Shown piece after piece: positions 1 through 13,585 of a stretch of DNA of 64,000 bases. Origin of the DNA: Azospirillum fermentarium (GTDB lineage Bacteria; Pseudomonadota; Alphaproteobacteria; Azospirillales; Azospirillaceae); NCBI RefSeq assembly GCF_025961205.1, contig NZ_JAOQNH010000001.1, forward strand, positions 768,001-832,000, in the 5' to 3' direction. How positions within the stretch are numbered: the stretch's first letter is position 1; each line of letters opens with the position of its first letter. Below the pieces are notes generated by a model. That model saw only the letters and a program-made list of their open reading frames with translations. It searched no databases and had not been told where the DNA came from. The translations under genes and the position numbers were made by a program.

Positions 1-9
1 ACCTGCTGA

Positions 10-242
10 ATTGTAGCCGCTGGGGGATCGGGGTCCAGCCGCAACAGCATAGGGGGACAGCTACCCCCGCTTGTCATTGTAGCCGCTGGGGGATCGGGGT
101 CCAGCCGCAACTGTCCGATATGACGCTCGTCCTGCGATTGATTGTAGCCGCTGGGGGATCGGGGTCCAGCCGCAACGTTGGCGGAGCACCAGTTGAGCAC
201 CGGGTTATTGTAGCCGCTGGGGGATCGGGGTCCAGCCGTACT
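10..242 (-). CRISPR. CRISPR array end, type II-C-like repeat, 4 repeats and 3 spacers visible
   Basis: Four 36-bp repeats lie at 10-45, 76-111, 141-176 and 207-242, separated by unique spacers of 30, 29 and 30 bp. Read on the minus strand the repeat starts GTTGCGGCTGG and ends GCGGCTACAAT, and a GCTGG/CCAGC pair can fold. GTTG...ACAAT ends with 36-bp repeats and about 30-bp spacers are known for type II-C (Cas9) arrays. In Neisseria such repeats carry a -10 box (here TACAAT), so each spacer may be transcribed leftwards. The first three repeats are identical. The last, at 207-242, has a degenerate outer end (GTACT in place of GCAAC on the plus strand), marking an array terminus. The nine bases before position 10 look like part of another spacer, so the array continues out of the window. 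No cas gene or tracrRNA anti-repeat is visible here; the type is inferred from the repeat only. Confidence 0.93.
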
Positions 243-308
243 GCAAGCAACAGGCTCATGTCTCGTGAGACATGGGTGAGACACCGGCTCTCAATCGCTC
301 ACAAAAAA

Positions 309-359
309 TCACGTCAGATGCTGCCGTTGCAGGTAGTCCTCGCTCTGCATCTCCATCAG
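309..359 (-). pseudogene. zapE: Displaced 3' end of zapE
   Basis: Read on the minus strand this encodes LMEMQSEDYLQRQHLT followed by TGA. It matches the last residues of the intact zapE at 12176 except for Q instead of P four residues from the end. This is the original tail of zapE, separated from its gene when the integrative element inserted and supplied a replacement tail. The CRISPR array lies about 70 bp beyond it on the same strand. Confidence 0.85.
325..359. repeat. attL, 35-bp direct repeat
   Basis: These 35 bp (starting CGTTGCAGGT, ending CTCCATCAG) are identical to 12192-12226 in direct orientation and fall inside the last codons of zapE. An integrase gene starts about 250 bp inside this copy. 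Outside the perfect block, the 68 bp at 257-324 still align without gaps to 12124-12191 at roughly 74 percent identity by hand count, so the homology extends past the crossover into the DNA downstream of zapE. Confidence 0.88.
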
Positions 360-605: not shown

Positions 606-1245
606 ATGCCCAAACTGACCGACACGACGATCCGTCACACCCGCGCCAAGGACGGGATTCGGACCATTCTGAGGGACGGCGCCGGCCTCGAATTGCAGGT
701 CCATCCGAGCGGCACCAAGACGTGGTACCTGCGCTGCCGCGTCCGCGCGGAGGGCGGCGGCAAGGGCATCCAGCGCCGCGTCGCGCTGGGCGCCTATCCC
801 GCGGTGTCGCTGTCGGACGCGCGGCTGGCGGCCGGCCGGGTCGTCTCGGAGGCGCGCAGCGGCCAGGACCCGAAGGCGGCTGAAACACGGGCCGTACTCG
901 GCCTGGAGAAGCCGCGCACGGTGGCCGACGCTGCCGCGCTCTACATCGCGCACCTGAAAGCGGTCGGGCGGGCGGAACGCTACTGGAAGGAGCGGGAACG
1001 GCTGCTGAAGCTCCACCTCGTGCCGGCGCTGGGCAAGCTCGCGCCGGCCGACGTCGATCGCGCCATGCTGTCGGCCGTGGTGGACCGCGAGGCGAGGCGC
1101 CAAGCCAAGGCCAAGCAGAAAGGCGTGCAGACGCGCCGGCTGGGCAGCGTGATCACCGCGCTGTGGCGGCACCTGGAGGACAAGGGGTGGCTCCCCACAC
1201 GCGGCACGGCGGATCGGTTGCTGGTGTCCGCCGCCGCGGAGCGCT
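606..1245 (+). pseudogene. Tyrosine integrase, N-terminal fragment (split by IS66)
   Basis: N-terminal half of a P4-type site-specific tyrosine recombinase. The first ~90 residues (MPKLTDTTIRHTRAKDGIRT, then a GTKTWYLR strand and a LGAYPAVSLSDAR motif) match the DUF4102 arm-binding domain. Residues ~100-200 are the SAM-like core-binding domain. The frame runs into the IS66 end and stops at 1280 after foreign residues. Joining 606-1245 to 3853-4547, which drops the IS and one copy of the 8-bp duplication, gives one uninterrupted frame of 444 aa with the junction reading AAAERSRDRILSDGE. The fragment lacks the catalytic domain. It was the integrase of the surrounding island, transcribed away from attL. 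Confidence 0.9.
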
Positions 1246-1342
1246 GTACGCATCCGGTAAGCGCCGCCTTGGCAAAGTAGGGTCCGACGTCTGAGTTTTG
1301 CGTGGCGCGTCATCGCGCGGACGCAAACGAGTGGCAAACGTC

Positions 1343-1753
1343 ATGGCTTACCAGCGGGTCGAGGTTCTGACGGGGACGGAGCGGCGGCGGAACTACACGC
1401 CGGCGGAGAAGGTCCGGATGGTCGAGGAGGCGTTCCGCCCCGGCGTGGTGGTGACGGAGGTGGCCCGCCGGCTGGGCGTGCACGAAAGCCTGCTGTATCG
1501 CTGGCGGGGGCTGATGAAGGCCACGGGGATCGCCGTGGGCGAACCGCCCAGCTTCACTGCGGTGACCATCACGCCGGAGCCGACCGTCACGGAACTGCCG
1601 GTCGTGGAGCCCCGTGCGCCATTGCCGCCTCCGGCGACGTCGGCCACGAGCCCGGCGATCCTCGAGGTCATCCTGCCCAGCGGGGCACGCCTGCGTCTGG
1701 AAGGGCCGGTCGACCCGGCCCTGGCGGCGGCCGTCATCGGTGCCCTGGCATGA
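1343..1753 (+). CDS. tnpA: IS66 transposition protein TnpA (Orf1)
   Basis: A 136-aa DNA-binding accessory protein of IS66-type transposition. A helix-turn-helix of the IS3/IS911 OrfA-like kind covers residues ~15-65 (RRNYTPAEKVRMVEEAF, then VTEVARRLGVHESLLYRWR). The C-terminal half is proline-rich and ends with the ILEVILPSGARLRLEGP segment common in these proteins. ATG at 1343 (MAYQRVEVLTG) is preferred over an upstream in-frame codon at 1298 because family members begin close to this point. The stop overlaps the tnpB start (ATGA), indicating translational coupling. Confidence 0.9.
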   Translation: MAYQRVEVLTGTERRRNYTPAEKVRMVEEAFRPGVVVTEVARRLGVHESLLYRWRGLMKATGIAVGEPPSFTAVTITPEPTVTELPVVEPRAPLPPPATSATSPAILEVILPSGARLRLEGPVDPALAAAVIGALA

Positions 1754-2097
1754 TCCCGGTGCCGAGCGGGGTGCGGGTGTGGCTGGCCAGCGGGCACACC
1801 GACATGCGCAAGGGCTGGGCGAGCCTGGCGTTGCTGGTGCAGGAACGCTTCGCCCAAGACCCGCACAGCGGCCATCTCTTCATCTTCCGCGGGCGCCGCG
1901 GCGATCTGGTGAAGATCATCTGGTATGACGGCCAGGGCAGTTGCCTGTTCATGAAGAGGCTGGAGCGGGGCCGTTTCATCTGGCCCACGCCGGCGGACGG
2001 CGCGGTGTCGATCTCGGTTGGGCAGATGGGCTATCTGCTCGAAGGCATCGACTGGCGCAACCCGCAGAAGACTTGGCGTCCCGAGACCGCAGGGTGA
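1750..2097 (+). CDS. tnpB: IS66 accessory protein TnpB (Orf2)
   Basis: A 115-aa protein of the IS66 Orf2 family (TnpB of IS66, unrelated to the RNA-guided TnpB of IS200/IS605). Recognisable features are the start MIPVPSGVRVWLASGHTDMR, the core GHLFIFRGRRGDLVKIIWYD, and the block LERGRFIWP. Length is typical. It overlaps tnpA by 4 nt and precedes tnpC by about 80 nt. The family is required for IS66 transposition, but its biochemical role is poorly known. Confidence 0.93.
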   Translation: MIPVPSGVRVWLASGHTDMRKGWASLALLVQERFAQDPHSGHLFIFRGRRGDLVKIIWYDGQGSCLFMKRLERGRFIWPTPADGAVSISVGQMGYLLEGIDWRNPQKTWRPETAG

Positions 2098-2176
2098 CTG
2101 CGACACGGTGAATCGACGGGCCGGTTCAGGGGAGATTGCGACGGCTCGAAGGCGTGATCCCAGGTAAACTGGCGCC

Positions 2177-3820
2177 ATGACCGCCGCCCCGCCCCCTGCC
2201 GCCGTGGCCGACGACATCGCCAGCTTGCGCGCCGCCTTGGCGCAGGCCGAGGCGCGGGCGGACGCGGCGGAAGCCGAAGCGGCGCGGGCCAGGGCGATGG
2301 CTTCGAACACCGAGGCGCTGATCGCCAGCCTGAAGCTGGAAATCGAGAAGCTCCGGCGCGAGCTCTACGGCACGCGCTCCGAGCGCAAGGCACGCCTGCT
2401 GGACCAGTTGGAGTTCCAGCTTGAAGAGCTGGAAGCGACGGCCAGTGAGGACGAGTTGGCAGCCGAGCAGGCCGCTGCCCGAACCACCGGGGTGACGGCC
2501 TTCACCCGCAAGCGGCCCTCGCGCCAGCCCTTTCCCGGCCACCTGCCGCGCGAGCGCGTCGTTGTGCCGGCCCCCGCGACCTGCCCGTGCTGCGGCTCGG
2601 ACAAGCTGTGCAAGCTGGGCGAAACGATTACCGAGACGCTGGAGGTGATCCCGCGCCAGTGGAAGGTGATCCAGACGGTGCGCGAGCGGTTCTCCTGCCG
2701 GGCCTGCGAGACGATCAGCCAGCCGCCGGCACCGTTCCACACCACCCCGCGGGGCTGGGCCGGCCCCAACCTGCTGGCCACCATCCTGTTCGAGAAGTTC
2801 GGCCAGCATCAGCCGCTGAACCGGCAGGCCGAACGCTTCGCGCGGGAGGGCGTGCCGCTCAGCCTGTCCACCCTGGCCGACCAGGTGGGCACCGCCGCCG
2901 CGGTGCTGAAGCCGCTGCACGACCTGATCGCGGCGCATGTGATGGCGGCTGAGCGGTTGCATGGGGACGACACCCCGGTGCCCGTGCTGGCCAAGGGCAA
3001 GACCGATACCGGGCGCCTGTGGGTGTATGTGCGCGATGACCGGCCGTTCGCCGGCCAAGCCCCACCGGTGGCGCTGTTCCACTATTCCCGCGACCGCAAA
3101 GGCGAACATCCCGAACGGCACCTGGCCGGCTTCAAAGGCTGGCTGCAGGCCGATGCGTTCGCCGGCTACAACCGGCTGTACGAACCCGAGCGACAGCCGG
3201 GGCCGATCAGCGACGTGCTGTGCTGGGCGCATGCCCGGCGCGGCTTCTTCAAGCTGGCCGACATCGCTACGAACACCAGGCGCGGCAAGGATGCCCCGCC
3301 GATCTCGCCGCTGGCGCTGGAGGCCGTGACGCGCATCGACGCCCTCTTCGATCTCGAGCGTGCCTTGAACGGCAAGCCGGCGGCCGAGCGGCTGGCGGCA
3401 CGCCAGGAGCATGGCGTCACCCTGGTAGCCGCGCTGGAGGGCTGGATGCGGACGGAGCGGGCCCGGCTCTCCCGCCATGCCCCCGTGGCCAAGGCGATGG
3501 ACTACATGCTGACGCGCTGGGACGGCTTCACCCGCTTCCTCGGCGATGGCCGGCTGTGCCTGACGAGCAACGCCGCCGAACGCGGCCTGCGCGGGATCGC
3601 CCTCGGGAGGAAGGCGTGGCTGTTCTGCGGCTCCGATCGCGGCGGCCAGCGGGCGGCGATCATGTATGGCCTGATCACCACCGCCAAGCTGAACAACGTT
3701 GACCCGCAGGCCTGGCTCGCCGACGTGCTGGCGCGCATCAACGACATGCCACAAAACCGCCTGCACGAACTCCTGCCCTGGGAGTGGAAGGCGATGCGCG
3801 AGCAGGCAAAAGCTGCCTGA
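2177..3820 (+). CDS. tnpC: IS66 transposase TnpC
   Basis: The 547-aa DDE transposase of the IS66 element. The N-terminus is a coiled coil (residues ~10-75, ending IEKLRRELYGTRSERK). A zinc-finger-like segment follows (CPCCGSDKL ... SCRACE, residues ~136-178). The catalytic core has plausible acidic residues in RLHGDDTPVPV, LQADAFAGYN and LTSNAAERGLRGIALGRKAW. The C-terminal IS66 segment contains NNVDPQAWLADVLARIN and ends close to the right inverted repeat. No frameshift or stop is seen and length is normal. The protein should bind the terminal repeats and move the element. Confidence 0.96.
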   Translation: MTAAPPPAAVADDIASLRAALAQAEARADAAEAEAARARAMASNTEALIASLKLEIEKLRRELYGTRSERKARLLDQLEFQLEELEATASEDELAAEQAAARTTGVTAFTRKRPSRQPFPGHLPRERVVVPAPATCPCCGSDKLCKLGETITETLEVIPRQWKVIQTVRERFSCRACETISQPPAPFHTTPRGWAGPNLLATILFEKFGQHQPLNRQAERFAREGVPLSLSTLADQVGTAAAVLKPLHDLIAAHVMAAERLHGDDTPVPVLAKGKTDTGRLWVYVRDDRPFAGQAPPVALFHYSRDRKGEHPERHLAGFKGWLQADAFAGYNRLYEPERQPGPISDVLCWAHARRGFFKLADIATNTRRGKDAPPISPLALEAVTRIDALFDLERALNGKPAAERLAARQEHGVTLVAALEGWMRTERARLSRHAPVAKAMDYMLTRWDGFTRFLGDGRLCLTSNAAERGLRGIALGRKAWLFCGSDRGGQRAAIMYGLITTAKLNNVDPQAWLADVLARINDMPQNRLHELLPWEWKAMREQAKAA

Positions 3821-3844
3821 CCGCGGTACTCAGCGGATGCTTAC

Positions 3845-4547
3845 GGAGCGCTCGCGCGACCGCATTCTGAGCGACGGCGAACTCGGCGAACTCGCCCTGG
3901 CGCTCGGCCTGCTGGACGGCCGCACGATCTACCAGCGGGAGGCGGACGGCACCCGCCCGATCAGTCGGCAGACACTCGACGCCATGGCCCTGGCGCTGCT
4001 GCTCGGCCTGCGCGCCGGGGAGGTGCTGCGCATCCAGGCCGGCAACATCCAGGAGGACAGCGAGACGGGCTTTGTCCTACTGCGCGTGGCCGCACACGGC
4101 GGCAAGACGGCGGCGGCGCGCCGTGATCTGCCGCTTCCCCCCTTGGCGCTCAGCGTCCTACGCCGCCGCCAGCAGGCATGCGGGGATGGCCTCCTGTTTC
4201 CCAGCCCAAGCGGCAAGACCGCTGGCGCGCTCACCGTGGACGGGCTCGCGTGCGCCGCCCGGTTGCTGACTAACAAGCTGGGCCACAGCGACCTGGAAGG
4301 CCGGCGCTGGACGCCCCACGATCTGCGCCGCACTTGCGCCTCGATCCTCGGCGAATACGATACGCCCGACGCGGTGCAGAAGCGCATCTTGGGTCACGCG
4401 AGCGACGGGGTGACCGCGCGCGTTTACGACCGGTCGCGCCGGCTGCGGCAGATGCGGGAGGCGCTAATGTCGGTTGAGAAGCACACGATCATGCAGGCGC
4501 GCAAAGCCGCTGGGCTGGATACGGAGCCGGTGCGGATCGGCGGGTAG
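3845..4547 (+). pseudogene. Tyrosine integrase, C-terminal catalytic fragment
   Basis: Catalytic half of the island integrase. The tyrosine recombinase signature is complete: Arg in GLRAGEVLRI, the HDLRRTCAS box (His and Arg), LGHAS (His), and the nucleophilic Tyr in ARVYDRS near the C-terminus. The lysine of the beta-hairpin is probably in AHGGKTAAARRDLPL. An ATG at 3840 gives an open frame of its own, but its first residues belong to the IS end. The fragment lacks the arm- and core-binding domains, so activity is unlikely. Together with 606-1245 it rebuilds a 444-aa integrase, normal for the P4 class. Confidence 0.9.
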
Positions 4548-5796: not shown

Positions 5797-5829
5797 GTTT
5801 ACATGGTTTTAAGGTGCGAAGGAACGGTG

Positions 5830-6429
5830 GTGACAGCTTCGCCCCTGCGAGATGGCGATATCCGGCGCCCCCTCCACCTGTGGCTGGAGAGGCAGCATGA
5901 AGGCTGCCCGGAAACCGGCATTATCCACGAGTTGAGGATACCACGCCCATCGGCGCGAGCTGATATCGCTGTCGTCAACGGAGAAATGGTCGGATACGAG
6001 ATCAAGAGCGATGTGGATAGCCTCGCGCGGCTTCCAAGGCAGGCCCGCGCGTTCAACAGAGTTTTTGATCGGGCCTATATAATAACGACTGAGAAACACC
6101 TACACCAAGTCGAGGCGTCCGTGCCGTTTTGGTGGGGAATTGCCGTGCCATCATCAGGCGAAGGAACTAGCCTATTCAGCCTTATTCGCTCGGCAGGACA
6201 AAACCCATCGCCGAGTTTGGAGGCTGCCCTATTCATTCTGCGCAAGCCCGAACTGATCTCCATACTCGTCGCACATAACCTAGCAAAGGGTATGCGCGAT
6301 AAGCGACATGCAGAACTAGTTAGATATGCAACTTCAAACATTGAGCAGGATACTTTGAAGGCAACCCTTCGCAAGACCTTGCGTGGACGCTTGGCGACGG
6401 CGCCCGCGCAGATGCCTTATTCGTCGTAA
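5830..6429 (+). CDS. sce7726-family-like protein (PD-(D/E)XK-like)
   Basis: About 199 aa. The core RADIAVVNGEMVGYEIKSDVD resembles the acidic/EXK motif of restriction-endonuclease-like folds and is characteristic of the sce7726 family. LPRQARAFNRVFDRAYII and PFWWGI are further family-like segments. The GTG at 5830 has GAAGGA six bases upstream and gives the family-like start TASPLRDGDIRRPL. An ATG at 5803 would need a near-leaderless mRNA. It converges on, and overlaps by 13 bp, the Beta/sce7725-like gene. The two names come from neighbouring genes in Sorangium, so the pairing is probably functional. The molecular role is unknown; nuclease activity is inferred from the motif. Confidence 0.75.
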   Translation: MTASPLRDGDIRRPLHLWLERQHEGCPETGIIHELRIPRPSARADIAVVNGEMVGYEIKSDVDSLARLPRQARAFNRVFDRAYIITTEKHLHQVEASVPFWWGIAVPSSGEGTSLFSLIRSAGQNPSPSLEAALFILRKPELISILVAHNLAKGMRDKRHAELVRYATSNIEQDTLKATLRKTLRGRLATAPAQMPYSS

Positions 6430-7583
6430 CCCTCATCTTCGCCATCGAGACCTGCAACGTTCACGGCCGCAGCACCTATCTGCCGGTGGATATGAATGTT
6501 GACCTTCACCGCATGCCAGAAACGGGATGCGAGCACGTCGGCCGTATCTCCGTTGGCGGCCCGGCCAATCACCTCGGCGCCCCATACCTCTGGGACGGGC
6601 TGATAGCGTTCATGCGCCACCACTTCCTCCGCGCCAGCGCCCCAACCAGCTTCATCGTTGGCGTCCGGGTGGCGATAGACTAGCCACGCATCATTGAGGG
6701 GGTACACTACTGTAGCCCGGTAATCAGATGGCGTAAATGTAGTCATTCTGCGGATACGGTTCATTGCCGCATAGTCTCCGAATAGAAAAGGGAACGATTC
6801 CCTCGCAGCGCGCCAGATCCCCCAATCGTCGTTACGATAATAAATCAAACCATCATGATTTGGCTTCATGAATGTGTTGCTCATGCACACGGCGCGAATT
6901 AATGCGATTTGCGCAGGATCAAGCCCTTCCGTGATGCGCCCGATAGCATTCCGTGCGAAATTCGCGCGGTCACGGAGGCGCTGCCGCCCCTGCCCGCAAT
7001 CTATAATGATGAGAAGATGGTCTGGCGAGTCGATAACCGAGATGATTTGGGAGATAATTTCAAAGATACGGGCGTTGTCCTCTTGTCGGATACGAATAGC
7101 TATTGATCCAGTCCTCGAAAAAAATGCCGCTTGCCGCAAGATTTGCCGGGCCTGCGCATCAGCGTCAGTGTATTGGATTACCGGTATTGCGTTAGGGAAG
7201 GTCGTCACCAGCCGTCGCCATGCGGAGAAACCGTCAGACGGGTCGAGCAATCGCGCAAGCCCCCTGTTGTAGGCTTCCTGCGCCTCACGCTCTTGCTCGA
7301 CACGCTGCCGTTCGGCAGCCGGGTCCCGAGGATTTGCGGAGATATGGGGGTCAGGCGCGGGTTCATGGCACAAATCAAGAATGAATGCCCTCGCCCCGAT
7401 GGTCTGCCTGATGTTGGCAATGGATGGGTCGAGGCTAGGGGAGTTTCCGCGCTGGCTTAGCTCAAGGACAGGGATTATCCAGTCCTTATCCGAATTTCCA
7501 AGGGATCGATAGCCCAGATGCTCTCCTGTCGAGCAACGCAACGCAGGATAGTATGGATATTGGGAGAAATCGACTATCGGCAT
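6417..7583 (-). CDS. Beta/sce7725-family-like protein
   Basis: About 388 aa, resembling the Beta protein (sce7725) family of mobile elements. It starts MPIVDFSQYPYYPALRCSTG and contains IIPVLELSQRG, AFILDLCHEP, HLLIIIDCGQG and a C-terminal half with DWGIWRAARESFPFLFGDYA and RFWHAVKVNIHIHRQIG. The pattern of alternating strands and helices suggests a TIM-barrel-like or similar alpha/beta fold. ATG at 7583 has AAGGAG eight bases upstream; the longer frame to 7673 has no such site. No signal peptide or membrane helix. It is tail-to-tail with the sce7726-like gene. Biochemical role not known; family members sit beside regulators and in variable islands. Confidence 0.7.
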   Translation of the reverse strand: MPIVDFSQYPYYPALRCSTGEHLGYRSLGNSDKDWIIPVLELSQRGNSPSLDPSIANIRQTIGARAFILDLCHEPAPDPHISANPRDPAAERQRVEQEREAQEAYNRGLARLLDPSDGFSAWRRLVTTFPNAIPVIQYTDADAQARQILRQAAFFSRTGSIAIRIRQEDNARIFEIISQIISVIDSPDHLLIIIDCGQGRQRLRDRANFARNAIGRITEGLDPAQIALIRAVCMSNTFMKPNHDGLIYYRNDDWGIWRAARESFPFLFGDYAAMNRIRRMTTFTPSDYRATVVYPLNDAWLVYRHPDANDEAGWGAGAEEVVAHERYQPVPEVWGAEVIGRAANGDTADVLASRFWHAVKVNIHIHRQIGAAAVNVAGLDGEDEGYDE

Positions 7584-8164
7584 GACGATCAGCTCCTTTG
7601 CCGCAGGAGAGGGCGCCCCCTCCTCCACCGCTAAAGAGCATACACCTTGAGACGAGCTTCTGTCGAATCCCACCTATCAGCGCGCATTCGCCACCAGCCC
7701 AATTCCACATACAATGGTATGCAACAACGGCGTCTGCGGCATAGCTTTCGACCATGGAAATTGCCTTACGCCCGGCCGTGCTGCCAGCGCGCACCATTCC
7801 ACGCGCAGCGCTGCGTCGTGAAGACCGTTGCGGCTCTTCATCAGTGCGCGCCTCTGGCAATCAGCTTGGTTTCCTTGCTGCGCCTATGGCGGAACAGCTT
7901 GTAACTCATTCCATTAGGCACAGCATGTCTGAGGATAATTTACACTATTTTTAGCGTATAATTTGCAGCGCGCAGCCATCCAATTTTGAACGGGAAGTTC
8001 CCGAAATGTTCATGTATGATGCTCCTTCAGCGTTGGACTGTATGGGTAACACACAGCCAGAAAGAGAGGTGTTGTCGGGAGCTATAGCTTGGCACTAGCA
8101 TCGGATGCGTCATGGACCGCCGTGGCCGCTGCGAGCCGCTAGGTTGCTAGAAGAGAGTAATAGG
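7584..8164. other. 581-bp intergenic region with promoter and nested palindrome for the downstream pair
   Basis: No convincing gene is seen; the short frames here have poor codon use. A perfect TATAAT lies at 7957-7962 (weak -35) reading rightwards. About 30 bp downstream, CGGGAAGTTCCCG (7991-8003) is a 6-bp-arm palindrome with one central base, enclosed by TGAAC (7987-7991) and GTTCA (8008-8012). This looks like an operator or structured leader for the 8165-9740 unit. The leader from the promoter to the first start codon would be ~195 nt. Confidence 0.45.
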
Positions 8165-9139
8165 ATGCGGAACGACCACAGAGAATTTTATGTATATGAT
8201 TTAGAAATTGGAGTGCGAAAGGCGGGAGCAAAAGTACCAGACATGGAAACTGTAGTTTCCGTTTGGGACAAGCTGTCAAGGGCAAATAGGTGCCACCCCA
8301 TCCAGAGTGGAAATATGACCTTATTAATCGGACAGGTGGAGATTAACCGGGAAAATAACGTGGCGACCATATTAGTTCGCCTGTCGAACAAGCTTGCCCC
8401 AAATAGTGTTTATTCCGATCCAACTACAGGAGATTTCAACGAGCACATCAAAACAGAAAATCAAGGCTCTGATTTCGCGTGCCACGTTTTGGTTTCCACA
8501 ATTCAGGAAGAGAACAAGCCGAACGTATATACATGTATTATCGAAAGAGTTGCCGGACTGACTCCAAATCTTGCTCAGCGTGTCTTATCCAAGTTTCTCA
8601 ACTTTGAATTCCACGAAGACACTACATCGTTCCAATACCGCTCCCCCGGAGGTGGGTTAGATCGGGCTGGTCAACCACGTATGGAAAGGTGCTGCCCACA
8701 CATTGAATTGCGGGGCCGCCCTTCTGATTCGTTGGTTCGGGATATTAATAATGGCCGTATTCACGGGATATCATTAGTAAAAGTCGAACAAAATACCCCA
8801 ATTGCTGGAGCTGCCTTCCTTACAAAAGAATCATCTGAGCTTAAGCTTGGGATTGATCGTGGGAATTTACCAGCAAATCTGTGGGATAATCTTCGCACAG
8901 CATTTCAAAGGAATGCTGGCAGTTATCAGCAGGCTAAAATTAGACTTGAGATGGATGGAACGAAAAGAAGCGTTACCGTAGATATCGATGCGCAAACCGG
9001 AGCCCCACTAAGAGATCTTTACATAAAATCTTTTGAAATCACCGACATCAGGCCACTACTAGCTCAATCAGCTCGCCAGATTGTACCGCATTTGCGGGAT
9101 CATGCAATCCCAAGGCTACTGGAACACAGGACGGTATAG
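8165..9139 (+). CDS. Unknown soluble protein, first gene of a two-gene unit
   Basis: 324 aa, no recognised family. ATG at 8165 follows an AAGAGAG-type ribosome site; the longer frame from 8105 adds residues unlike the rest. Predicted by eye as beta-rich in the first half (REFYVYDLEIGVRK, MTLLIGQVEIN, VATILVRLSN, VYTCIIERVAGL) and mixed alpha/beta in the second (SLVRDINNGRIHGISLVKVE, then SVTVDIDAQTG and a basic C-terminal helix). No signal peptide, membrane helix or obvious catalytic motif; two adjacent cysteines in ERCCPHIEL are notable. G+C is far below the chromosome and codons use A/T at third positions, so it is recently acquired. The stop is four bases before the next ATG, so the pair is one operon. 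The second gene is a membrane protein, so this may be its sensor or partner. Confidence 0.7.
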   Translation: MRNDHREFYVYDLEIGVRKAGAKVPDMETVVSVWDKLSRANRCHPIQSGNMTLLIGQVEINRENNVATILVRLSNKLAPNSVYSDPTTGDFNEHIKTENQGSDFACHVLVSTIQEENKPNVYTCIIERVAGLTPNLAQRVLSKFLNFEFHEDTTSFQYRSPGGGLDRAGQPRMERCCPHIELRGRPSDSLVRDINNGRIHGISLVKVEQNTPIAGAAFLTKESSELKLGIDRGNLPANLWDNLRTAFQRNAGSYQQAKIRLEMDGTKRSVTVDIDAQTGAPLRDLYIKSFEITDIRPLLAQSARQIVPHLRDHAIPRLLEHRTV

Positions 9140-9143
9140 AAAT

Positions 9144-9740
9144 ATGCTGCGCCAGACAAGATATGAGCTACTTCGCGGCTTTGCATATCTCAGGATTATT
9201 CATCCTGAAATTCGAACCTATACGACGTGGCTACCGGTATGCTTGACGGTAATCGCACTTTTTTGCTATTTGGCGTTACCAGTTCCCCCAGTTTTGTTCG
9301 GGAAGGACGGAACCCTTGCGTCTCTGTTGACGCTTTTGTCCACGCTCCCGGGGTTTTATTTTGCAGGCCTTGCAGCCGTCGCTACCTTTGGCGGGGAAGG
9401 CATGGACAGGGAGATGCCAGATCCAGCACCACAAATACGGATAGTAGAATCCGGGCGGGACGTTCTAATTAAGCTGACAAGACGGCAGTTTTTGTCATAT
9501 CTATTCTCTTATCTTGTTTTAATATCATTTATTATTTGCCTACTTATAATAGGATTGAATTCCAGTGTTGACTCCATCTCTTATGTGAAAACCTTAATAT
9601 CTAGCTATAATTATGGAAAAGAAATGATTGCAGTTGGGCGGTTTTTGATTGTTGCTCCTCTAGCGATTTTGCTTAGCTCAATGCTGGTAGTAACATTGCA
9701 CGGCGTGTTCTTTCTTGCCGAAAAAATTCATCTACCTTAA
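9144..9740 (+). CDS. Unknown four-helix membrane protein, second gene of the unit
   Basis: 198 aa with four hydrophobic segments, at residues ~30-48, ~58-82, ~117-140 (LVLISFIICLLIIGL) and ~166-190. The N-terminus is basic, and a polar loop sits between helices two and three (residues ~83-115). ATG at 9144 is four bases after the previous stop and has AGGACGG upstream. G+C is low, matching its partner. A soluble ~320-aa protein with a ~200-aa four-helix membrane protein recalls the layout of the Kiwa defence system (KwaA/KwaB) with the gene order reversed. I see no sequence match that would let me call it Kiwa. A membrane effector or anchor is the simplest inference. Confidence 0.7.
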   Translation: MLRQTRYELLRGFAYLRIIHPEIRTYTTWLPVCLTVIALFCYLALPVPPVLFGKDGTLASLLTLLSTLPGFYFAGLAAVATFGGEGMDREMPDPAPQIRIVESGRDVLIKLTRRQFLSYLFSYLVLISFIICLLIIGLNSSVDSISYVKTLISSYNYGKEMIAVGRFLIVAPLAILLSSMLVVTLHGVFFLAEKIHLP

Positions 9741-10225: not shown

Positions 10226-10520
10226 GGGATATCCACTCAACAGGTCTAAGAACAGGGCGCACGGCTGAACAATAAACACTTAGAGTTGCCAGCCGTTCCA
10301 GATATTTTTGCTGTGTTACAATGTATACGAAGCCGACGTTTGTCGGGCAATTTTTCCGTTGATCATCAATAACTTACGCAAACGCGTCGGACATCCTTTT
10401 ATCTTGCTGAGCGATTTTGTCCGCCATCTCTACACCACGCTACGCCCCATTGCGCGGGCGTTATCCTTCGCCACCTCTTCTTCGATGCTGCACGTGATAA
10501 GCAGACGTTTTAGGCGTAGA

Positions 10521-11003
10521 TCAGGGATGCGGCCGATGCGTCTTCGCGATCCGTTCGGCATCGGCGAGGACGCTCCAGATCAGTCGCCGCTCGGGTGGAG
10601 CGTCGTCGGACGGTTCGGTGAAGAGCTGGCCGGGCTCGTCCTGGACCATCCGCCAGAGGACCCGGAGACGGGCAACCAGACTGGCGGGCGTGTGTGCCGG
10701 CAGGGCGGCGATGCGCGTCTCGATATCGTCAAGGCGGGTGCACAGGGCTTCGAGGCGGTCGTCCAGCACATCGAGTCCGGTGGCCTTCGTGGCGGCCTTG
10801 TAGCGGGTGTAGTCGTCGGGCGGCATAGCAGCGGGGTAAGGGTAGCGGCCGATCCACTGCGCCTCCTCGGGAGCCGTGGCGCTCTTCAGGCAGGCAGCGA
10901 TCAGCGTCTCGTGGTAGCGGCGCAGTAGCTTCCGGTGCTCCGCCCCGAGCCGAAGCAGCTCGGCATCCTTGCTCCACCGGATACGGGCTCTCCGGCGTGT
11001 CAT
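10521..11003 (-). CDS. Hypothetical protein, coupled to the Tat-signal protein
   Basis: 160 aa, largely helical, no family recognised. It starts MTRRRARIRWSKDAELLRLG and has a heptad-like helix VLDDRLEALCTRLDDIETRI (residues ~80-100), consistent with coiled-coil pairing, then a helical C-terminus. The ATG overlaps the stop of the upstream gene by 4 nt (11000-11003), so the two are probably translated together. No signal peptide or membrane helix. A conserved pair on mobile elements is likely but the function is unknown. Confidence 0.6.
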   Translation of the reverse strand: MTRRRARIRWSKDAELLRLGAEHRKLLRRYHETLIAACLKSATAPEEAQWIGRYPYPAAMPPDDYTRYKAATKATGLDVLDDRLEALCTRLDDIETRIAALPAHTPASLVARLRVLWRMVQDEPGQLFTEPSDDAPPERRLIWSVLADAERIAKTHRPHP

Positions 11004-11533
11004 GGTGGGCCTGTCGTGATCGCGGGTAGGTCGGGATGGTCCAGGGCGCTCAGCTCATTCAGGGCGCCTTGTACGAGCCGCCAGGAGGGGTCTGCGCGCT
11101 CGACCGGGTCGGCGAGTTCGAGGGCCAGGGCCAGCTTGGCGGCGATACCGGCGCGGGTCTGCGACGACTGGTCGATGATCGTTCTGACCAGGGTGTCGAG
11201 GCGGCGGTCCAGCTCCAGTTGGCGCGTCTCAATGTTCAGGAGGTCGCCGGCTTCAGGGGCGCCCGCCTTCATCGTCTCTTCGAAACGGTTGGCGCCGACC
11301 AGTTGGAGGAGCGCCTGCTCCAGGCGGCTCCACTCGCTGCGCAGAACCTCGGCTTGCACCATGTCGGCCTGCCATTCCCGCCAGAGCGGGAGGACGGGAT
11401 CGGGTCCCGATGCCATGATTGAAGGAGCGAGCGTTGAGGAAGCAGCGACGCCGGCCAGCAGCTTGCGGCGGGAGAGCGGAGGAACGCTGGCGGGCGCTCC
11501 CGGATACAGGCATGCGCCATGGGCGTCGGCCAT
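11000..11533 (-). CDS. Hypothetical protein with twin-arginine-like signal
   Basis: 177 aa. The N-terminus has SRRKLLAGVAASSTLAPSI (residues ~21-39), a twin-arginine export signal pattern. The mature part is helical with DLLNIETRQLELDRRLDTLV suggesting a coiled coil. ATG at 11533 has GGAAGGGA five bases upstream, better than the frame start at 11578. It overlaps the next gene by 4 nt and diverges from the XRE regulator across a region with an inverted repeat. Function unknown; export is inferred from the signal only. Confidence 0.6.
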   Translation of the reverse strand: MADAHGACLYPGAPASVPPLSRRKLLAGVAASSTLAPSIMASGPDPVLPLWREWQADMVQAEVLRSEWSRLEQALLQLVGANRFEETMKAGAPEAGDLLNIETRQLELDRRLDTLVRTIIDQSSQTRAGIAAKLALALELADPVERADPSWRLVQGALNELSALDHPDLPAITTGPP

Positions 11534-11569
11534 GAGATTCCCTTCCACCTCATCCGTGACCGTTTTACT

Positions 11570-11615
11570 ATCACGCATGACCGGAATTCGTCAACACAAA
11601 ACGATCTTGCGTGAT
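11570..11615. promoter_or_regulatory. Inverted repeat between divergent genes, candidate XRE operator
   Basis: ATCACGCA (11570-11577) and TGCGTGAT (11608-11615) are perfect inverted copies 30 bp apart, between the Tat-signal gene and the XRE gene. Spacing and position fit two operator half-sites for an autoregulator controlling both directions. The XRE ribosome site AAGGAAA follows at about 11620. Confidence 0.5.
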
Positions 11616-11632
11616 CAAAAAAGGAAAACGGC

Positions 11633-11887
11633 ATGCTGACGGGGGCACAGATCAGGGCGGCGCGCGCTTTGCTCGACTGGAGGCAGAACCGCTTGGCGGA
11701 GGAGTCCGGCGTGTCGGGGCCAACGATCCGGCGCATGGAAGGGGCGAAAGGGACGAGCAAAAGCTTGGTCGAGAACGTTGAGGCTGTCCGCCGTGCGTTG
11801 GAGGCAGCGGGGGTCGTGTTCCTGGCCGACGGGGAACAGCGTGCCGGCGGCCCCGGCGTGCGCCTGCGCGAACCGGAAGAGACCTGA
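11633..11887 (+). CDS. XRE-family transcriptional regulator
   Basis: 84 aa, essentially one Cro/C1-type helix-turn-helix (residues ~5-60): TGAQIRAARALLDWRQNRLA, then GVSGPTIRRMEGAKG. The short tail VRRALEAAGVVFLADGEQR is typical of small stand-alone XRE regulators in alphaproteobacteria. ATG at 11633 has AAGGAAA nearby. It is the last gene before attR and is divergent from the two coupled unknowns. It probably represses the island promoters, with 11570-11615 as its likely site. Confidence 0.85.
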   Translation: MLTGAQIRAARALLDWRQNRLAEESGVSGPTIRRMEGAKGTSKSLVENVEAVRRALEAAGVVFLADGEQRAGGPGVRLREPEET

Positions 11888-12021: not shown

Positions 12022-12132
12022 GGCGCGAGGACGGGGTTAGCCTCGGGAGCAGCGGACGGGGCGGCAGAGCGGCCCCTTCAGGCCGACGGATGCGAAGTTT
12101 TCATGGCTGCCCAGCCGTGCGGGCATGCCTCG

Positions 12133-12152
12133 TGAGACACAGGTGTGACACC
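12133..12152. repeat. Possible integrase arm-type sites, right end
   Basis: TGAGACACA (12133-12141) and TGTGACACC (12144-12152) repeat the motif seen at 547-567, 40-60 bp inside attR. They also align with 266-285 outside the left end. The function is inferred. Confidence 0.45.
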
Positions 12153-12175
12153 GGCCGGAAAGCACTCGGAAAATA

Positions 12176-13372
12176 TCAAGTAAGATGAGGGCGTTGCAGG
12201 TAGTCCTCGCTCTGCATCTCCATCAGGCGGGAGACGGTGCGTTCGAATTCGAAGGCGTGGGTGCCGTCGGGGTACAGGCGTTCGGGGGGGCCGTCGGCGG
12301 CGATGACCACGTTGACCTTGTGCTCGTACAGCGCGTCGATCAGGGTCATGAAGCGCTTGGCCTCGTTGCGCAGCTCGTCCCGCATGGTGGGAACGTTGTC
12401 GAGCAGCAGCGTGTGGAAATGGGTGGCGATGCCCAGGTAATCCGCCGCCCCCAGCGGCTTTCCGCACAGATCCCAGAAATCGGCGCGGGCCACCGATTTG
12501 GCGGCACAGGGGATCTCCACCCGGCGGCCCTGCACCAGAAGGTGGGTGGGCTCGCCCGCGGCACCGCCGGTCAGGGCGGCAAAGGCGCGGTCCAGGGCGG
12601 CGGACGCCGCAGGCCCGAGGGGATGGTGATAGATGGGCACGCCCTTTAGCCGGTCCAGCCGGTAATCGGTGGGGCCGTCCAGCGACAGAACGTCCAGCTT
12701 TTCCTTCAGCAAGGCGATGAAGGGCAGGAACAGTTCGCGCTGAAGCCCGTCCTTGTACAGCATGTCGGGCGGCCAGTTGGATGTGGCCACCACCACCACG
12801 CCCAGATCGAACAGATGGGTGAACAGCCGGCCCAGGATCATGGCATCGACGATGTTGGTCACGTGGAATTCGTCGAAGCACAGCAGCCACGCCTCGTCCG
12901 CGAGCGCGCGGGCCAGGTCGGGCAGCGCCTCGTCGGGGCCGTCGCCCTTGCCCTTGCCGGAGCGGCGGTGGTCGTGGATGCGCTGGTGGACCTCCAGCAT
13001 GAATTCGTGGAAATGGACGCGGCGCTTGCGGTCCGCCGGGGCGGTTTCGAAGAACAGGTCCATCAGCATGGATTTGCCGCGCCCGACGCTGCCGTACAGG
13101 TAGAGCCCCTGGGGAGCGGTGGCGGCGATGTCGGGCGGCGGCGGGGCGGGGCGGCGGCGGCCCAGCCCGAAGCGTTCCAGCCAGCCGCCGGCCGAGGTCT
13201 TGCCGCCGTCGCCGGTGGGCTGGGGCCGGTAGCCCTTCAGCGCGTGATAGAGGCTTTCGAACTTTTCCGCCGCCAGTTCCTGATCGGGATCGGGGCGCAG
13301 CGTGCCGGTGCCCCGGCGGGCGCGGTACAGCGAAAGCGGTCCATTGAGGGGCATGGCGGCCAGCCCTGGCAT
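12176..13372 (-). CDS. zapE: Cell division protein ZapE (AFG1-like ATPase)
   Basis: 398 aa, AFG1/ZapE family P-loop ATPase, known in E. coli to act at the FtsZ ring and in other systems in quality control of membrane proteins. Walker A is GSVGRGKS (~residue 94), Walker B LLCFDEFHV (~166), sensor-like ATSNWPPDMLYKDGLQR (~196). The C-terminus EFERTVSRLMEMQSEDYLQR is family-typical. ATG at 13372 is taken; a second ATG 18 bp in gives MPLNGPLSLYRARRG. The final ~5 codons and stop come from the inserted island, changing one residue from the displaced tail at 309-359. Otherwise the protein is intact, so the insertion is probably neutral for the gene. Confidence 0.93.
   Translation of the reverse strand: MPGLAAMPLNGPLSLYRARRGTGTLRPDPDQELAAEKFESLYHALKGYRPQPTGDGGKTSAGGWLERFGLGRRRPAPPPPDIAATAPQGLYLYGSVGRGKSMLMDLFFETAPADRKRRVHFHEFMLEVHQRIHDHRRSGKGKGDGPDEALPDLARALADEAWLLCFDEFHVTNIVDAMILGRLFTHLFDLGVVVVATSNWPPDMLYKDGLQRELFLPFIALLKEKLDVLSLDGPTDYRLDRLKGVPIYHHPLGPAASAALDRAFAALTGGAAGEPTHLLVQGRRVEIPCAAKSVARADFWDLCGKPLGAADYLGIATHFHTLLLDNVPTMRDELRNEAKRFMTLIDALYEHKVNVVIAADGPPERLYPDGTHAFEFERTVSRLMEMQSEDYLQRPHLT
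12192..12226. repeat. attR, 35-bp direct repeat within zapE
   Basis: Identical to 325-359. It lies in the coding end of intact zapE, whose last residues and stop are provided by island DNA at 12176-12191. This arrangement, insertion in a gene end with restoration of the frame, is usual for tyrosine-integrase elements. Confidence 0.88.
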
Positions 13373-13439
13373 CTGTCAAGCAAGACCCCCTTCCTAACGA
13401 ATCGCAGCCGATGCCGCAACGCACATATCTCGACGGGTT

Positions 13440-13490
13440 CCAAGGGCCGCCGGCCCTTGGCGGGGGAAGCCCGAGGGGGGCGGCGCCCCC
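13440..13490. repeat. Intergenic hairpin pair
   Basis: CCAAGGGCC-GCC-GGCCCTTGG (13440-13460) and GGGGGC-GGC-GCCCCC (13476-13490) are perfect stems with three-base loops, between divergent zapE and the FAH gene. The same hairpin style recurs at 21100-21219 and 25456-25572. It may act as a terminator-like or dispersed palindromic element. Confidence 0.55.
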
Positions 13491-13585
13491 TTCGTATCCC
13501 TTCTCTGCCGAAACGGACTCTTGGCAAGACCGCGCCTTGCGGTTAACCCTGTGATGTCATCGACCAGCCCCGGAGCGTGTCCGCC

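Follow-up and report, generated by a model that had tools for sequence, protein, structure and literature searches.

An apparently intact type II-C CRISPR-Cas9 locus in Azospirillum fermentarium, with the oldest end of its array next to an integrated island

The CRISPR repeats at positions 10-242 of the window (the whole 64,000-nucleotide stretch analysed here, C1:768001-832000 of the 5.89-Mb genome of Azospirillum fermentarium, which its relatives place in or next to Azospirillum) are the last four of the 13 repeats of an array and form its leader-distal, oldest end. This array very probably belongs to a complete and apparently intact type II-C CRISPR-Cas9 locus in which transcription would start at promoters inside the repeats and stop at a terminator in the leader. 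The array is an ordinary new addition to subtype II-C; the single feature that may be new is the leader, in which a terminator-like hairpin is combined with a motif at a fixed distance from the first repeat.

Most of the locus lies to the left of the window and is given in the coordinates of L007 (C1:752001-770000; the window position equals the L007 position minus 16000). The part within the window, with repeats counted from the cas2 side, is as follows:

1..9, minus strand: end of spacer 9, the remainder of which lies left of the window; 30/30 match to the strain's own LysR-type gene, without PAM
10..45, minus strand (the crRNA-sense strand): CRISPR repeat 10 of 13, identical to the consensus
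46..75, minus strand: spacer 10, 30 nt, placed by the array layout, without database match
76..111, minus strand: CRISPR repeat 11, identical to the consensus
112..140, minus strand: spacer 11, 29 nt, placed by the array layout, without credible match
141..176, minus strand: CRISPR repeat 12, identical to the consensus
177..206, minus strand: spacer 12, 30 nt, the oldest, placed by the array layout, without credible match
207..242, minus strand: CRISPR repeat 13, the degenerate "extra" repeat and the oldest, with the promoter-like part kept
207..234, also 168-141, 103-76 and 37-10, minus strand: promoter-like TGGACC-16 nt-TACAAT, from a motif scan

The first-pass annotation, made from the letters of the window, had described four 36-nt repeats with a degenerate outermost copy, and this description holds: the repeats at 10-45, 76-111 and 141-176 are identical, that at 207-242 is 92% identical to them, the spacing is 65-66 nt, the three enclosed spacers are 30, 29 and 30 nt long, and the minus-strand repeat ends are GTTG and CTACAAT. 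In the outermost repeat, GTTG is replaced by AGTA in the first 4 nt (crRNA sense) and the rest is unchanged, which amounts to 3 mismatches in nt 1-18 and none in nt 19-36. Since the array continues leftward as 13 regularly spaced units (L007:15416-16242, with 12 spacers and 65-67-nt spacing), 11 of them identical, it is far beyond chance; a whole-genome scan found no second CRISPR array elsewhere in the genome. Degenerate units occupy the cas2-distal end here and in several relatives, with the decay falling mainly in the first 18 nt (crRNA sense), so that the annotation had in view the oldest third of the array. Mutated extra repeats are described for II-C arrays in a survey in which the mutations of the oldest, 5′ repeat were concentrated in its first 15 nt and its promoter part was kept (PMC12080349), a pattern that the present array fits.

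All the components proposed to lie left of position 1 are present, from cas9, cas1 and cas2 to further repeats and a tracrRNA that carries an anti-repeat, so that the array reading, against which their absence would have counted, stands:

about L007:10600-10712, minus strand: tracrRNA, upstream of cas9 and divergent from it
L007:10867-14055: cas9, 1062 aa (TIGR01865, 552 bits; HNH_4 and RuvC_III domains)
L007:14075-15058: cas1 (TIGR03639, type II Cas1 of the NMENI group, 235.7 bits, cut-off 120)
L007:15012-15341: cas2 (TIGR01573)
L007:15342-15415 (C1:767342-767415): leader, 74 nt, between cas2 and the newest repeat

The assignment to type II-C, originally made from the repeat ends, is borne out by the complete locus, in which only cas9, cas1 and cas2 stand beside tracrRNA and array. 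There is no csn2 or cas4: tracrRNA, cas9, cas1, cas2, leader and array are contiguous (L007:10600-16242), with no other gene between them, and the gene upstream of the locus is alpha/beta-hydrolase-like. The repeats of 36 nt and spacers of 29-31 nt are of II-C size. All three cas reading frames are open, the Cas9 motifs of RuvC-I (LDLGTSS), RuvC-II (VVELARD), HNH (DIDHILPFSRT) and RuvC-III (HHAIDA) are intact, and Cas9 residues 6-767 align to the solved Nme-type Cas9. In the tracrRNA, the anti-repeat is perfect over 23 nt and is accompanied by a stem-loop and by a terminator hairpin that is GC-rich and ends in a U-rich tail; folding predicts a tracrRNA:repeat duplex of -63 kcal/mol with the internal loop expected for type II. 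A search of Rfam, solely at the default gathering threshold, returned no family match.

The same repeat, gene order and anti-repeat are found in A. tabaci, A. brasilense HAMBI_3172, A. cavernae, A. griseum, A. oryzae and Skermanella aerolata, with the anti-repeat at the same place in the loci of all six, and the repeat and gene order recur in further Azospirillum genomes. The loci of A. tabaci W712 and A. brasilense HAMBI_3172 (L009 and L010) have an identical repeat, Cas9 proteins 90-91% identical to the present one, and the same gene order and leader hairpin, whereas their spacers are entirely different, the arrays vary from 6 to about 49 units, and the chromosomal neighbours are other ones. 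A comparison across Azospirillum revealed no conserved synteny of the CRISPR locus, apart from one relative (G004) whose divergent II-C array also lies beside zapE. The array of A. tabaci W712 contains an insertion of ~2.4 kb (L009:13747-16171), on both sides of which the repeats continue, and single repeat copies are present in two other Azospirillum genomes (L058 in G068 and L059 in G026).

The TACAAT at each repeat end had been suggested as a possible -10 box of the kind known from Neisseria, where the box has the extended form TGnTACAAT. What stands of this suggestion is the box itself, now accompanied by a -35-like element: TGGACC-16-TACAAT occurs in 12 of the 13 repeats, including the degenerate one, and is missing from one variant repeat. 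The TG that marks an extended -10 is absent from the box, and TGGACC matches the -35 at 4/6 positions. The 12 sites in L007:15300-16700 compare with 0.5 expected in shuffles and count as one observation because they are copies of a single repeat; those in the repeats are confined to the minus strand and point toward cas2. A promoter role is plausible by analogy with Campylobacter jejuni, in which promoters inside repeats have been shown (PMC3656092). The II-C systems of Neisseria meningitidis and C. jejuni likewise consist of cas9-cas1-cas2, a tracrRNA, ~30-nt spacers and 36-nt repeats ending in a -10-like box; the present locus differs from them in that its -10 box (GGCTACAAT) is not extended, its repeat is GC-rich, its predicted PAM is NGGNR-like and its promoter is putative.

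By analogy with the II-C systems that have been studied, crRNAs would be transcribed from the in-repeat promoters, on the strand running toward cas2 and with a start inside each spacer; the tracrRNA would pair with the repeat, and RNase III would generate the 3′ end. The transcripts would terminate at the leader hairpin just ahead of cas2, and Cas9 with crRNA:tracrRNA would cut protospacer DNA beside a PAM close to NGGNR. The cas2 end is where new spacers would be expected to enter, as in Riemerella, where insertion takes place between cas2 and the first repeat (PMC6008519).

The leader contains an inverted repeat within the 50 nt adjoining the first repeat on the cas2 side. In an alignment of 12 Azospirillum and Skermanella loci, 86% of the cells of this hairpin are paired, compared with 25-50% after one arm has been shifted 1-3 columns out of register; two-sided changes affect 8 of the 15 pairs, and the covariation score is 0.318 vs 0.138 in shuffles. 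The hairpin of A. fermentarium itself folds with -24.7 kcal/mol (z -4.1), and a T-run follows the hairpin on the crRNA (minus) strand in most of the 12 loci. Judging from these features, it resembles an intrinsic terminator that would act on transcripts running out of the array in the direction of cas2. A simple terminator scan that allowed no mismatch did not list the hairpin of A. fermentarium, probably because of its single C-A stem mismatch.

Loci with a type II Cas1 were collected from 385 alphaproteobacterial and 398 Pseudomonadota genomes and scored by one fixed rule. Of 66 II-C-like loci in Pseudomonadota, 37 have a terminator-like site on the crRNA strand no more than 80 nt away from the first repeat, compared with 12/66 on the opposite strand, 3/33 in the far-end flank and 17% of shuffled leaders. 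The Fisher P of ~1e-5 for each comparison needs caution, given the relatedness of the loci and the possibility that a few of the 66 arrays belong outside II-C. The count of 37 wrongly scores L014 as lacking a terminator, its leader having been anchored inside the array; this is corrected in the count for the motif. The leader columns are conserved as well: T at -13 is found in 45/57 leaders and C at -21 in 37/57, together with A at -19 and -20, all exceeding the maximum of 500 shuffles and yielding a motif of approximately TCAA-N4-CTT from -22 to -13 relative to the first repeat. In many loci one arm of the terminator is this very motif (e.g., AAGGCCCTGATTTCAGGGCCTTTTTTC in L119).

A tentative reading, to which we give real weight while stopping short of favouring it, is that the Pseudomonadota II-C leader is a composite, in which a motif that marks the insertion site is built into an arm of the terminator that ends all crRNA transcripts, so that the array grows at its own transcription stop. 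Each new spacer would then enter with the last promoter-bearing repeat on one side and the terminator on the other, and would be expressed from the repeat, with transcripts never reading into cas2-cas1-cas9. The hairpin could instead be a palindrome that acts at the DNA level, recognised by Cas1-Cas2 or by a host factor, rather than a terminator. In keeping with that alternative, the fixed-distance motif is overlapped by one hairpin arm and is conserved even in some arrays without a terminator-like site (e.g., L083, L087 and L110); the T-run on the crRNA strand, along with the excess of sites on that strand (37/66 leaders vs 12/66 on the other), argues against it, and on balance we consider it unlikely. 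The two roles, terminator and DNA palindrome, are not mutually exclusive.

Growth at the 3′ end of the transcript and promoters within the repeats are already known for II-C arrays. The terminators reported for II-C arrays are located upstream, on the extra-repeat side (PMC12080349), whereas the hairpin described here is at the opposite, acquisition end beside cas2; a literature search, incomplete in coverage, recovered no paper describing a terminator on the acquisition side, and the literature searched does not address the termination of the transcript next to the convergent cas genes. A conserved terminator at the insertion end, if that is what the hairpin is, accompanied by the fixed-distance motif, would explain this termination and would provide a sequence handle for studies of II-C adaptation. 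The array itself adds an ordinary II-C Cas9 system of a plant-associated genus, for which an NGGNR-like PAM is predicted and the tracrRNA has been worked out.

The expectation that the three spacers within the window would reveal the phage history of the strain was disappointed, no match being found to phages, plasmids or viral contigs. The array stretch yielded only chance-level matches to phage and plasmid records, and none of the 20-nt PAM-side seeds of spacers 3, 10, 11 and 12 matched any of 2.9 million viral contigs exactly; thus no foreign target was found for the 12 spacers in phage and plasmid records or, for those four, in viral contigs. In A. tabaci, 12 spacers have matches in Azospirillum genomes at 0-4 mismatches, as does a single spacer of A. 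oryzae at 5 mismatches. The 3′ flanks of these 13 protospacers (12 from A. tabaci; perfect self-matches excluded) have G at position 2 in 12/13, G at position 3 in 11/13 and a purine at position 5 in 12/13, which suggests for the relatives a PAM close to NGGNR. The Cas9 of A. tabaci is 90.5% identical to the present Cas9, and 93% identical over the C-terminal 262 residues; given this similarity, a PAM of the same kind is predicted for A. fermentarium. EHCas9, a metagenomic II-C enzyme, is likewise a small II-C Cas9 with an NGG-type PAM (PMC10281378), and differs in preferring NGGDT, whereas all but one of the 13 protospacers here have a purine at position 5.

Spacer 9 matches the strain's own chromosome at C1:2378940-2378969 (L028:8940-8969) over 30/30 positions, within a gene for a LysR-type regulator, for which similar sites occur in many genomes of Azospirillum. 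The PAM side of this self-target is CCCCCGAC, outside the predicted PAM. A. tabaci spacer 13 also perfectly matches its own genome, beside GAACTCCT, and PAM loss at self-targets has likewise been noted for the II-C system of Flavobacterium columnare (PMC8092290). Read in reverse complement, the opposite flank of this spacer 9 target starts with TGG; insertion of the spacer in flipped orientation is possible, a single case proving nothing.

A perfect match to the host chromosome, together with the lack of a foreign target for any of the strain's own spacers, is what might be seen if the locus were a decayed relic in which genes and array persist after acquisition and interference have been lost. 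We regard this as improbable: the three cas frames are open and the catalytic motifs of Cas9 intact, 11 of the 13 repeats are identical and the outermost is the decayed unit to be expected, the tracrRNA and the leader hairpin are retained, and the self-target lies outside the predicted PAM, so that it could be tolerated without inactivation. By analogy with the systems studied, the apparently intact II-C locus would be active in the strain. It is scarcely credible that, in the manner of type II-A, a single leader promoter beside cas2 drives the array in the direction leading away from the cas genes, with the hairpin serving otherwise: although other types usually have their promoter in the cas2-side leader, the tracrRNA anti-repeat pairs with the minus-strand repeat, the protospacer flank motif is on the side expected for a minus-strand guide, and the in-repeat promoter-like sites are on the minus strand only.

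The integrated island that the first-pass annotation placed next to the array is real, and both of its ends could be located:

257..359: array-side copy of the attachment site (displaced zapE 3′ end and flank), 83% identical to 12124-12226, the last 34 nt identical
606..1280, plus strand: tyrosine integrase, N-terminal part (Arm-DNA-bind_3)
1298..3820, plus strand: IS66-type element, tnpA, tnpB and tnpC
3699..4547, plus strand: integrase, C-terminal part (Phage_integrase), in a frame that overlaps the end of the tnpC frame
5803-6429, plus strand: sce7726/"cll", candidate defence gene (PADLOC)
6417-7673, minus strand: Beta protein, candidate defence gene (PADLOC)
8105-9139, plus strand: PDC-M53A, candidate defence gene (PADLOC)
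9081-9740, plus strand: PDC-M53B, candidate defence gene (PADLOC)
12124..12226: zapE-side copy of the attachment site (zapE 3′ end and flank)
12176..13372, minus strand: zapE, the target of integration at its 3′ end

In G004 the array abuts zapE directly and the island is absent; this empty site and the direct repeats indicate that ~11.9 kb was inserted between the array and zapE, at the 3′ end of that gene, leaving the CRISPR array outside the island. The integrase is split by the IS66-type element, and the island is therefore probably no longer self-mobile. Two other candidates for the attachment site were rejected: the end of the last CRISPR repeat (GGTCCAGCCGCAAC) is confined to the array, the real direct repeat being the zapE 3′ end, and there is no tRNA attachment site within the 64,000-nt window. 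A palindrome (CATGTCTCGTGAGACATG, 257-274) just outside the degenerate repeat is perhaps an old zapE terminator upstream of the array. Further, unassigned frames of the island are found at 10308-11639. Beyond zapE, a short element (about 35-75 bp) at about 13431-13509 recurs many times genome-wide, and the core genes nusA, infB, truB and pnp follow from 15981 onward.
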